Of a DNA stretch of 64,000 nt, positions 5,367 to 38,254 are shown in pieces; position 1 is the first letter of the stretch, and the number at the start of each line of letters is the position of its first letter. The notes beneath the pieces were generated by a model, which was not told the DNA's origin, ran no database searches, and was given only the letters and a program-made list of their open reading frames with translations. A program made the position numbers and the translations under genes. Where the stretch lies: positions 1-64,000 of the forward strand of contig QOCQ01000021.1 of NCBI GenBank assembly GCA_003574685.1, read 5' to 3'. This DNA comes from Rhodospirillaceae bacterium SYSU D60007. Its GTDB lineage: Bacteria; Pseudomonadota; Alphaproteobacteria; Reyranellales; Reyranellaceae.

Positions 5367-5440
5367 GGTGGTGTCTTTCCTGTTGTCCGGGGCGCACCAA
5401 CACCGGAACGCGCGGGCCCGCAACCGGAAAGTGGCGCGCG

Positions 5441-5469
5441 TTGACGCAGGCCCCCGTCCGACCTAACTC
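5441..5469 (+). promoter_or_regulatory. Candidate promoter of hrcA
   Basis: TTGACG (5441-5446) is followed after 17 bases by TAACTC (5464-5469). The -35 is good and the -10 weak. If used, the transcript would carry the whole family-A palindrome in its leader. Other promoters cannot be excluded. Confidence 0.3.
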
Positions 5470-5473
5470 TTAT

Positions 5474-5667
5474 CCCTTCTCCCCGCGAAGGCGGGGAGAA
5501 GGTGCCCGAAGGGCGGATGAGGGGCTTCGCGACCTTGCAACCAACAAGGTGCTGGCTTGCTGGCAGAATAGTCCCGCCATTGTTGCACTGTATCCGTTGC
5601 GCCGCCGCAAAGCCCCTCATCCGGCGCTGCGCGCCACCTTCTCCCCGCCTTCGCGGGGAGAAGGGAA
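5474..5667. repeat. Palindromic repeat family A, long variant, in the hrcA leader
   Basis: Two arms of almost 60 bases, nearly perfect inverted copies, flank about 75 bases of unrelated DNA. The outer sequence is CCCTTCTCCCCGCGAAGGCG, a variant of the CCTTCCCCC end of the other copies, and the inner GTGCCCGAAGGGCGGA module is shared. It occupies the rph-hrcA divergent promoter region and ends 25 bases before the hrcA start codon. Confidence 0.85.
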
Positions 5668-5692
5668 TGCGAATACGCCTGGAGGGCCCACG

Positions 5693-6805
5693 ATGAGCCG
5701 CGTCACCCGCGTTGTTGAAACGCCCGCCCCTGCCTCGCGGCGCGAGAGCCGCTCGCTGGCCGGGCCGGGGGCGCCGGTGGCGGAGCTCAACGAGCGGGCA
5801 CGCGAGGTCTTCCGGCGCATCGTCGAGGCCTACGTTGAGAGTGGCGAGCCCGTAGGGTCGCGCACGCTCACCCGCCGGCTGAGCGAGCATCTCTCGCCCG
5901 CCACCATCCGCAATGTCATGGCCGACCTCCAGGATGCCGGGCTGCTGTTCGCACCCCATACATCGGCAGGGCGGGTGCCGACCGATGCCGGCCTGCGCCT
6001 GTTCGTCGACGGGTTGCTTGAGATCGGCAACCTCTCGCAGGAGGAGCGCGACAGCATTGATGGCCGGTGCGCCGCGGTCGGGCGCAGCGTACAGGACGTG
6101 CTCAGCGAAGCATCCAGCCTGCTGTCCGGCCTTTCCCGCTGTGCCGGCGTGGTGATCGCGCCACGGGTCGAGCAGCCGCTGAAGCATATCGAATTCGTCA
6201 ATCTCGGTCCGGGACGGGCCCTGGTCGTGATCGTGACGGAGAACGGCACGGTCGAGAACCGCATCATCGAGACGCCGCTCGGCCTGCCACCCTCCGCCCT
6301 GATCGAGGCCTCCAACTATCTCTCGGCCCGCCTGGTCGGCCGCACGCTGGAGGAGGCGCGCGACGCCATCGAGGCGGAGCTGCGCGCCCAGCGCGCGCAG
6401 CTCGATGAGCTCACCCGCCGCATTGTGGAGGCAGGGCTCGCGACGTGGAGCGGCGATCCCGGCTCGGCGCTGATCGTGCGGGGACAGGCCCGTCTGCTGG
6501 AGGACGTGACCGCGCTGGAGGACCTTGAGAACGTCCGCCGCCTGTTCGAGGCGCTGGAGCGCGGAGAATCCTTCATGCGCCTGCTGGAGCTTGCCGGCGG
6601 CGCCGAAGGGGTCAAGATCTTCATCGGGGCCGAGAACCCGCTGTTCGGCCATGCCGGCTGTTCGGTCATCGTGGCGCCGTTCCGCAACAGCCAGGAGCGC
6701 ATCGTCGGCGCCCTGGGCGTGGTCGGACCCACCCGGATCAACTACGCCCGCATCGTGCCCATGGTCGATTACACGGCAAGAGTCGTGGGGCGGCTGGTCG
6801 GGTAG
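5693..6805 (+). CDS. hrcA: Heat-inducible transcription repressor HrcA
   Basis: This 370-residue repressor binds CIRCE operators (TTAGCACTC-N9-GAGTGCTAA) and is kept active by GroEL. The N-terminal winged helix is visible: REVFRRIVEAYVESGEPVGS, then SPATIRNVMADLQDAGLL and HTSAGRVPTD. The central and C-terminal parts include the dimerisation GAF-like domain and IVGPTRINYARIVPMVDY. The ATG at 5693 follows a GGAGG site, and its first residues align with family N termini better than the longer frame through the repeat. It heads the hrcA-grpE pair. A perfect CIRCE element before the Hsp20 operon at 38.2 kb is a likely target. Confidence 0.96.
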   Translation: MSRVTRVVETPAPASRRESRSLAGPGAPVAELNERAREVFRRIVEAYVESGEPVGSRTLTRRLSEHLSPATIRNVMADLQDAGLLFAPHTSAGRVPTDAGLRLFVDGLLEIGNLSQEERDSIDGRCAAVGRSVQDVLSEASSLLSGLSRCAGVVIAPRVEQPLKHIEFVNLGPGRALVVIVTENGTVENRIIETPLGLPPSALIEASNYLSARLVGRTLEEARDAIEAELRAQRAQLDELTRRIVEAGLATWSGDPGSALIVRGQARLLEDVTALEDLENVRRLFEALERGESFMRLLELAGGAEGVKIFIGAENPLFGHAGCSVIVAPFRNSQERIVGALGVVGPTRINYARIVPMVDYTARVVGRLVG

Positions 6806-6923
6806 GCCCCGGCCCCGGAAGCGTTGGCGCCGCACCGCCTTGACCCGCACGCCCCCAGCGCCTAAGTCCGGAGCGTGCGGCGGGGCCAGGTCTCGCCGCA
6901 ACGATTTTCCGCGTCATTTGAAG

Positions 6924-7631
6924 ATGATCAGAGCCGACATGCCGACCGATCCTGCGAAGTTCAAGCCATCCGGTGCGAATACCAGCCCCGGGGACGAGCC
7001 CGAGACAGACTTCGAGGGTAGCCTGGATATACCCGAAGTGCCGCGCGCCGATGCCGGCGACCCGGCGCAGGTGATCAAGGCGGCGGCCGAAGCCCGGATC
7101 GAGCAGCTCGAGGGTGAGCTGGCCTCGATGCGCGAGCAATGGATGCGCGCCGCCGCCGACGCACAGAATGCACGCCGGCGTGCCAAGCTCGATGTCGAAG
7201 AGGCCCACAAGTTTGCGGTTTCGCGCTTCGCCAAGGACCTGCTGTCGGTGGCCGACAATCTGGCCCGCGCGCTGGCGGCCCTGTCCGCCGACATCGACGG
7301 GGTCGACGACCGGCTGAAGAACGTCATCGCCGGCGTGCAGGCGACCGAGCGGGAGTTGCAGGCGATCTTCGAGCGGCATGGCATCAGGAAGATCGCGGCC
7401 CAGGATGCGCCCTTCGATCCGCAGCTTCATCAGGCGGTCAGCCAGGTCGAGGACCCCTCGCGGCCCAACAGCTCGGTCGCGCAGGTGTTCATGGATGGCT
7501 ACACACTGAATGACAGGCTGCTGCGCCCGGCCATGGTGGTCGTTGCCAAGGGAGGTCCTGCTGGACCCCGGCCCGCGGCCCGGTCGCAACCCGAGTCGGC
7601 CAACGCCGGCATGGACGCCGACGGCGCCTGA
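6924..7631 (+). CDS. grpE: Nucleotide exchange factor GrpE
   Basis: The 235-residue co-chaperone releases ADP from DnaK. A charged, low-conservation N terminus leads into the long paired helix (EARIEQLEGELASMREQWMRA, then ADAQNARRR) and a C-terminal beta domain with FDPQLHQAVSQVED and VFMDGYTLNDRLLRPAMVVV. Two ATGs are possible, 6924 and 6939, and neither has a strong ribosome-binding site; I kept the longer one. It sits 118 bases after hrcA and upstream of dnaK, completing the hrcA-grpE-dnaK-dnaJ heat-shock cluster. Confidence 0.94.
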   Translation: MIRADMPTDPAKFKPSGANTSPGDEPETDFEGSLDIPEVPRADAGDPAQVIKAAAEARIEQLEGELASMREQWMRAAADAQNARRRAKLDVEEAHKFAVSRFAKDLLSVADNLARALAALSADIDGVDDRLKNVIAGVQATERELQAIFERHGIRKIAAQDAPFDPQLHQAVSQVEDPSRPNSSVAQVFMDGYTLNDRLLRPAMVVVAKGGPAGPRPAARSQPESANAGMDADGA

Positions 7632-7834: not shown

Positions 7835-9769
<1,935 letters not shown>

Positions 9770-9909: not shown

Positions 9910-11037
9910 ATGGCGCAGGATTTCTACGAACTGCTGGGCGTCGGTCGCGGCGCGAACGCGGACGAGATCAAGAAGGCGTATCGCAAGCTCGCCATGCAGT
10001 TCCACCCGGACCGCAACCCGGGAGACAAGGCGGCCGAGAAGAAGTTCAAGGAAATCAATCACGCCTACGACATTCTGAAGGACGACCAGAAGCGCGCGGC
10101 CTATGACCGCTACGGTGCCGCCGCCTTCGAGGGCGGCGCCAACGGGCCGGGCGCGGGGCCTTTCGGCGGCGCCGCCGGCTTCGATTTCAGCGACATCTTC
10201 GAGCAGATGTTCGGCGGCGACATGGCCGGCCGCGCCCGCAGCTCCGGCCCGGCACGCGGCAACGACCTGCGCTACAATCTCGAGATCTCGCTGGAGGAGG
10301 CCTTCAGCGGCAGCGACGCCAGCATCCGGGTCCCCAGCTCCGTCACCTGCGACGCCTGCCACGGCAGCGGCGCCGAGCCCGGCTCGCGGCCGGTCAACTG
10401 CCCGACATGCCACGGCCGCGGCCGCGTGCGCATGCAGCAGGGCTTCTTCACCATCGAGCGCACCTGCCCCGCCTGCCACGGCGCCGGGCAAAAGATCGAG
10501 AAGCCGTGCCGCACCTGTCACGGCGCCGGCCGCGTGCGCAAGGACAAGACGCTCAACGTCAAGATTCCGTCCGGCGTCGAGGACGGTACGCGAATCCGTC
10601 TGGCCGGCGAGGGTGAGGCCGGTGCACGCAGCGGACCGCCGGGCGATCTCTACGTCTTCCTGTCGGTGCGCAAGCACCGGCTCTACGAGCGCGACGGCGC
10701 TGACCTGCTGTGTCGGGTGCCGATCAGCATGGTGCAGGCGGCCCTGGGCGGCGCCGTCGAGGTGCCGACGCTCGATGGCAAGATGGCGCGCGTCTCCATT
10801 CCCGCCGGCACCCAGGCCGGCCATCAGTTCCGCCTGCGGGGCAAGGGCATGCCGGTGCTGCGCAGCGCCCAGAAGGGCGACCTATATATCGAGGTGCTGG
10901 TGGAGACGCCGGTCAATCTCACGGCGCGCCAGAAGGAGCTGCTCAAGGAGTTCGAGGCCGCCGGCAAGGGCAACGGCACCTCGCCCGAATCCGAGGGCTT
11001 CTTCAACAAGGTCAAGGAGATGTTTGGCGGCGACTGA
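9910..11037 (+). CDS. dnaJ: Co-chaperone DnaJ (Hsp40)
   Basis: This 375-residue type I J-protein stimulates DnaK ATPase and delivers substrates. The J domain has HPD at residues 32-34 and is followed by a Gly/Phe-rich stretch ([20 protein letters not shown]). Four CxxCHGxG zinc repeats follow: [24 protein letters not shown] and CRTCHGAG. The C-terminal substrate domains contain FRLRGKGMP. The start at [11 protein letters not shown] is preferred over a frame five residues longer, because J proteins begin at this position. It lies two bases before tag, so the two are probably cotranscribed. Confidence 0.98.
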
Positions 11038-37249: not shown

Positions 37250-37648
37250 CTAGCTGACAGCAATACGCCGTGGCACGGCTTGCTTTGCCTTGGGCAAGGT
37301 GAGCGTGAGGACGCCGTCTCTCAGGTCGGCGCTGATGCCGTCCTGGTTGACCTTGTCCGACAGCGTAAAGGCCCGCGCGTAGTTGCCGACGTTGTACTCG
37401 GCATACACCGGCTCCATGCCGTCATACTTGGTGAAGTCGATCCTGCCCTCCACCTGAAGGACATCACCCTCGAGCTTCACCTCCACGTCGTCCTTCTCCA
37501 CGCCCGGAAGCTCCATCACCAGCGTAAGGGCCTCGTCCGTCTCGTAGATATCGGTGGTGGGAATGTAGTAGCGGGCGGGAACTGTCTTCTCCTCCTTCGA
37601 GGTCAGCTCCTTCTTCTCCTGGACCGCAAGCTCCTGTGGGGCGACCAT
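37250..37648 (-). CDS. Small heat-shock protein (Hsp20), second gene
   Basis: The 132-residue alpha-crystallin-domain chaperone prevents aggregation of unfolding proteins. The domain spans residues about 30-130 with MELPGVEKDDVEVKLEGDVL and the C-terminal LRDGVLTLTLPKAKQAVPRRI. The N-terminal arm is short and charged. It lies 32 bases after another Hsp20 gene and should share its CIRCE/sigma-32 promoter. Confidence 0.93.
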   Translation of the reverse strand: MVAPQELAVQEKKELTSKEEKTVPARYYIPTTDIYETDEALTLVMELPGVEKDDVEVKLEGDVLQVEGRIDFTKYDGMEPVYAEYNVGNYARAFTLSDKVNQDGISADLRDGVLTLTLPKAKQAVPRRIAVS

Positions 37649-37680: not shown

Positions 37681-38100
37681 TCAGGACAGCTTGATCGAGC
37701 GCGGCTTGTCGCGTTCGGCGCGCGGCAGGAACAGCGCGAGAATCCCGTCGCGGTATTCCGCCCTGACCTTTTCGGCGTCGACTTCCACCGGGATGGTGAT
37801 CGCGCGATCGAAGCGCCCGGCAAGCCGCTCGCGGCGGTGCAGGCCGGCCTTCTCGGGATACTGCACCGACTTGGCGCCGGCGATGCGGATCGTGTTGCCT
37901 TTGACCTGGATGTCGAGCTCGGACTTGCTGATGCCCGGCAGCTCGATGATGACGACGAAGTCTTCCCCCTTCCTGAACACGTTCAGGGGCGGGAAGGTGC
38001 CGCCGGCACTGGGCCCTGAGTTCAGCCAGGGGCTGGCGCGGAACGAGTCCAGCGCGCGCTGCAGATTGAAGAGCGGCTCAAAGGGATCCGGTAACAGCAT
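37681..38100 (-). CDS. Small heat-shock protein (Hsp20), first gene
   Basis: The 139-residue alpha-crystallin-type chaperone has a hydrophobic N-terminal arm (MLLPDPFEPLFNLQRALDSF) and a crystallin domain with VVIIELPGISKSELDIQVKG, ending in YRDGILALFLPRAE. The ATG at 38100 is preferred since the longer frame crosses the CIRCE operator. It is the first gene of a two-gene hsp20 operon whose leader contains CIRCE (38197-38223). Confidence 0.93.
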   Translation of the reverse strand: MLLPDPFEPLFNLQRALDSFRASPWLNSGPSAGGTFPPLNVFRKGEDFVVIIELPGISKSELDIQVKGNTIRIAGAKSVQYPEKAGLHRRERLAGRFDRAITIPVEVDAEKVRAEYRDGILALFLPRAERDKPRSIKLS

Positions 38101-38196
38101 GACATCGAGGCCTCCTCGCCTGTTTGAAGTCGCGAGGCCAGGCGTGCCCAGGAGAAGGCGCACACCCCTGCTGCACCGGAAGCGTGTCCCCGGCCC

Positions 38197-38223
38197 TTGG
38201 CACTCTCTGGCATCGAGTGCCAA
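38197..38223. promoter_or_regulatory. CIRCE operator (HrcA binding site) of the hsp20 operon
   Basis: TTGGCACTC (38197-38205) and GAGTGCCAA (38215-38223) form a perfect 9-bp inverted repeat with a nine-base spacer. The consensus is TTAGCACTC-N9-GAGTGCTAA, so there is one compensated change per arm. It lies 97 bases upstream of the first Hsp20 start and just downstream of a sigma-32-type promoter, the classic operator position. HrcA is encoded at 5.7 kb. Confidence 0.92.
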
Positions 38224-38226
38224 AGT

Positions 38227-38254
38227 ACGTAAAAAGGCGGCGGCGGTTTTCAAG
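38227..38254 (-). promoter_or_regulatory. Sigma-32-type promoter of the hsp20 operon
   Basis: On the minus strand CTTG (38254-38251), part of CTTGAAAA, is followed after 17 bases by TTTACGT (38233-38227), five of seven bases of CYTATNT. The predicted start of transcription falls at the CIRCE operator. Dual control by sigma-32 and HrcA is inferred. Confidence 0.6.

Follow-up and report, generated by a model that had tools for sequence, protein, structure and literature searches.

A CIRCE operator at the sigma-32-like promoter of an hsp20 gene pair in Rhodospirillaceae bacterium SYSU D60007, and a predicted HrcA link to rpoH

Analysis of a 64,000-nucleotide stretch of the Rhodospirillaceae bacterium SYSU D60007 genome (hereafter the window) has revealed a perfect 9-9-9 CIRCE on the minus strand, just downstream of the sigma-32-like promoter CTTG-N17-TTTACGT and before two small heat-shock genes, hsp20A and hsp20B (hsp20AB), with every element lying where the original prediction had placed it. 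Taking into account the other CIRCE copies of the genome, it is quite likely, judging from the sequence, that hsp20AB has a sigma-32-type promoter under HrcA/CIRCE control and that HrcA acts also on rpoH, the whole forming a feed-forward loop. The features of the hsp20 locus are as follows.

38248..38254, minus strand: -35 element CTTGAAA, sigma-32-like; CTTGAAAA is kept in the same-genus genome G001
38227..38233, minus strand: -10 element TTTACGT, a weak match to CCTAAAT, assigned by position and by the corresponding CCTAACT of G001
38218..38222, minus strand: predicted transcription start in the first CIRCE arm, inferred from the -10 position
38197..38223, minus strand: CIRCE operator, TTGGCACTC-GATGCCAGA-GAGTGCCAA, a perfect 9-9-9 inverted repeat
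38101..38196, minus strand: 5' untranslated region from CIRCE to hsp20A, subjected to fold and Rfam checks
37681..38100, minus strand: hsp20A, small heat-shock protein of 139 aa (PF00011, E=1.6e-19)
37250..37648, minus strand: hsp20B, small heat-shock protein of 132 aa, second of the pair (PF00011, E=9.4e-20)

The operator differs from TTAGCACTC-N9-GAGTGCTAA at two positions, both being the frequent A-to-G/T-to-C variant. No other CIRCE-like match occurs in the window at up to 3 mismatches, none appeared in 100 shuffles, and the site is one of exactly four perfect copies genome-wide: the pattern TTRGCACTC-N9-GAGTGCYAA is matched without mismatch four times in 5.34 Mb, where about 1.2e-4 matches are expected from base composition. 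The hsp20 pair resembles class I heat-shock genes in having a close variant of the operator near its promoter and an hrcA gene in the same genome (TIGR00331 above cut-off).

Read along the minus strand from 38254, the sequence is CTTGAAAACCGCCGCCGCCTTTTTACGTACTTTGGCACTCGATGCCAGAGAGTGCCAA. The promoter is made up of CTTGAAA, a spacing of N17 after CTTG and TTTACGT, and since the CIRCE begins 3 nt past the -10 element, the start point is expected within its first arm. A two-block promoter matrix, trained on 17 family groESL promoters and 6 hsp20-orthologue promoters with the window genome excluded, has ranked this promoter 10th among the 128,000 window positions, a score that a random 69-nt stretch reaches with P=0.0019. 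The match is better than chance, though its -10 element is weak. The two top-scoring sites of the matrix lie before hrcA and grpE, an independent sign that it detects heat-shock-type promoters. When compared to the sigma-32 pattern, CTTG-N17/18 followed by a CCTAT/CCCCAT-like -10 element, the -35 element is perfect and the -10 weak, and the G001 orthologue is a strong match. The predicted assignment to sigma-32 follows this resemblance, in a group where sigma-70 and sigma-32 promoters are not firmly separable by sequence. It has to be weighed against an arrangement in which control rests mainly with HrcA at a housekeeping promoter of the sigma-70 type, without direct involvement of sigma-32; both the weakness of TTTACGT as a sigma-32 element and the location of the rpoH CIRCE on a sigma-70-like promoter (TTGCGT-N17-TATATT) would fit such an arrangement, but it is considered unlikely, given that CTTGAAA is the sigma-32 -35 consensus, kept in G001 beside CCTAACT, and that scanning of the hsp20 region for a sigma-70-type promoter found none.

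The CIRCE lies 96 nt from the hsp20A start, and hsp20A and hsp20B are separated by a short intergenic gap. The two genes adjoin in 27 of the 27 loci examined, some of these being the same locus represented in two collections. ROSE elements are RNA thermometers that hide the ribosome-binding site of many rhizobial hsp20 genes, and a similar post-transcriptional control could be envisaged in the 96-nt leader, where the probable ribosome-binding site GAGGAGG is base-paired within a predicted hairpin. This explanation is very improbable, as it finds no support in folding energy or in Rfam: the leader is no more stable than its shuffles (z = -0.05 and +0.66) and matches no Rfam thermometer family.

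As had also been predicted, hrcA is present in the same window, encoded together with grpE, dnaK and dnaJ at about 5.7-11.0 kb.

5440..5468, plus strand: promoter-like site of hrcA, GTTGACG-N18-CCTAACT, without CIRCE; sigma-70 or sigma-32 type; top-scoring in the window
5694..6805, plus strand: hrcA, encoding the repressor that would bind CIRCE (above the TIGR00331 cut-off, with E=1.7e-91); start codon uncertain
6839..6867, plus strand: sigma-32-like promoter before grpE, CTTGACC-N18-CCTAAGT, without CIRCE; second-best in the window
6924..7631, plus strand: grpE (GrpE family models); start inferred
7835..9769, plus strand: dnaK (NF001413, E=0)
9910..11037, plus strand: dnaJ (NF008035)

The window search at up to 3 mismatches bore out the proposed lack of a CIRCE upstream of these four genes. 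The hrcA gene occurs in 30 of 31 family genomes, and a CIRCE at hrcA is absent from all 30 family loci examined (best candidates with at least 6 mismatches). A strong site of the form [GA]TTGAC[CG]-N18 with a CCTA-type -10 element precedes hrcA in 29 of the 30, and the promoter-like site of grpE is the same in G001 and in G002, a second genome of the genus. The site before hrcA does not have the C of CTTG and may therefore be of the sigma-70 rather than the sigma-32 type; were it a sigma-32 promoter, sigma-32 would in addition boost HrcA, the factor predicted to repress it. Window positions 5470-5668, between this site and hrcA, contain an intergenic repeat of near-palindromic form, with CCTTCTCCCCGCGAAGGCGGGGAGAAGG and one more copy; it lengthens the hrcA leader, so that the site lies at -349, compared to about -120 to -167 in most relatives.

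Besides the hsp20 copy, the genome has three perfect CIRCEs, 37 nt ahead of groESL, 90 nt ahead of rpoH and 29 nt ahead of a DUF1178 gene, which places all four 29-96 nt from start codons. The rpoH copy (G000:C4:56481-56507; locus L001:520-1410) directly follows its TTGCGT-N17-TATATT element, and the encoded RpoH scores above the TIGR02392 cut-off; it is unique in the genome, where the second match falls below that cut-off. The DUF1178 copy is located at G000:C45:168735-168761 (locus L004:1001-1471). No CIRCE was found at the second groES of the genome (C23) or at its other two hsp20 genes.

All family CIRCE sites examined lie on groESL, rpoH or DUF1178, with the addition of hsp20 in the source genome (G000) and G001. 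An rpoH-adjacent copy, in most cases immediately behind a promoter-like TTGnnn...TA element, occurs in at least 24 family genomes, with further sites of the same form among those listed. In most members its upstream half-site is GCAGTC, not GCACTC, a constant deviation which may weaken the operator. For DUF1178, 15 loci of the family have a CIRCE, which in most cases follows a CTTG-N17-CCCCAT-like promoter. Outside the family (apparently Reyranellaceae), a CIRCE at rpoH is rare in alphaproteobacteria, with two genomes found: G089, the one positive among 28 rpoH loci drawn from other genera of the class, and G047. In a survey of the class, a perfect CIRCE was detected in 29 of 105 genomes, with groESL as the usual target; two copies lie by dnaK, one overlapping its apparent start, and hsp20 cases are among the remainder. 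These figures agree with the earlier contention that a CIRCE on hsp20 is uncommon. Perfect CIRCEs also precede an apparent enoyl-ACP reductase-type gene (L160, G116:C8) and an apparent glycerophosphodiester phosphodiesterase-type gene (L161, G136:C7), both identified by eye.

At the hsp20 pair, the arrangement is recurrent but patchy. In G001, CTTGAAA-N17-CCTAACTCCG, with the -10 element CCTAACT, is followed by TTGGCATTC-N9-GAGTGCCAA at a spacing identical to that of the window, the operator having one change relative to the window copy. Within the family, a CIRCE at the pair has been seen only in the source genome and G001. The pair occurs without a CIRCE in G002 and in the Reyranella-branch members, and G003 has no hsp20 gene; the missing operators indicate that HrcA control of hsp20 is dispensable. 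The 14 closest orthologue loci in the contig collection (L040-L052 and L063) are nearly all alphaproteobacterial or proteobacterial, with one binned as Nitrospira, and four of them, the alphaproteobacterial loci L040, L045, L051 and L052, have a CIRCE within 250 nt upstream. L040 shows the same layout as the window, with CTTG-N18-CCTAACTGGC and then the CIRCE. In L051 the CTTG element is inside the CIRCE spacer and CCTACAT lies downstream, so the operator there covers the -35 element and not the start point. Together with the identical spacing in G001, these orthologous pairs lend support to the suggested function of the hsp20 CIRCE. That it is a relic or chance palindrome unused by HrcA is scarcely credible despite its lack in G002 and the other family pairs except G001, as about 1e-4 perfect copies were expected, all four lie before heat-shock genes or genes with a CIRCE family-wide, and the hsp20 copy is conserved in G001.

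On a tree of concatenated hsp20AB, in which many forks are weakly supported, the CIRCE label requires 5 changes compared to 5.3 for shuffled labels. It is thus scattered, which may speak against a single origin of a CIRCE-bearing hsp20 lineage; the pattern could have arisen through gain and loss or through loss from an ancestral state. The grouping of L049, an hsp20 locus of Reyranella, with members of the family is the basis for naming the family as probably Reyranellaceae. In the class, only 4 of 385 genomes have an hsp20A orthologue, a rarity that suggests horizontal spread. In another alphaproteobacterium, an hsp20 judged by eye to be of the IbpA type is preceded at 85 nt by a perfect CIRCE (L164, G150:C6:725-751), which again follows a CTTGAC element. 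G150 constitutes an independent case, its hsp20 being unrelated to the window pair.

From the sites, positions and conservation observed here, we infer that HrcA binds, which sigma factor is used, that heat induces the genes and how the system behaves over time. Transcription of hsp20AB would proceed from the sigma-32-type promoter with its start point within the CIRCE. In unstressed cells HrcA, folded with the help of GroEL, would occupy the CIRCE and block initiation. By analogy with HrcA proteins already characterised, HrcA would unfold upon heat shock, face competition for GroEL and so lose its activity, as sigma-32 increases. Since an HrcA operator is also present on the sole rpoH, sigma-32 would increase and its targets would be unblocked together: loss of HrcA would yield more sigma-32 and simultaneously release hsp20AB, groESL and DUF1178. 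HrcA is thus a probable repressor of sigma-32 as well as of its targets, in a coherent feed-forward loop. During recovery, new GroESL would refold HrcA. For the family as a whole, a reading with somewhat better than even prospects places HrcA above sigma-32, controlling rpoH via the GCAGTC-bearing operator as a form of affinity tuning and repressing sigma-32 targets too, with DUF1178 as a core heat-shock gene of unknown function.

The usual view is of HrcA and sigma-32 as two heat-shock controls that run in parallel and converge on groESL. In the organism described here, one operator would connect them serially as well as in parallel, a network design testable by a single repressor deletion. 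The arrangement also offers a clue to what DUF1178 does, a family whose annotation says no more than unknown. In the titles, abstracts and passages covered in the open literature, no report was found of a CIRCE on rpoH, hsp20 or DUF1178 in alphaproteobacteria; novelty is provisional, as the search was limited to open papers.

Among known systems, negative CIRCE/HrcA regulation has been described for Caulobacter groESL, with GroESL keeping HrcA in its folded, binding form (review, PMC8119881). The same operator at a sigma-32-type promoter and the same negative HrcA loop with GroESL are found in Caulobacter crescentus (PMC8119881), whereas here it is an hsp20 pair that is targeted, and rpoH and DUF1178 belong to the regulon as well. 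Small heat-shock genes under predicted HrcA control are known from lactobacilli, namely Lactobacillus acidophilus hsp16, with a CIRCE upstream (PMC3179173), and L. plantarum hsp3 (PMC6503756). These resemble the hsp20 pair in that respect, but the organisms are Firmicutes, where the promoter is of the sigma-A type and sigma-32 is uninvolved. In Geobacter sulfurreducens, a CIRCE has been predicted before rpoH, at -51 from the start (Rodionov 2004, PMC545781); that case concerns one deltaproteobacterial genome, in which the hrcA-grpE-dnaK-dnaJ operon also has a CIRCE (PMC545781). Unlike in G. sulfurreducens, the rpoH CIRCE described here is shared across an alphaproteobacterial family, in which hrcA and dnaK are CIRCE-free.
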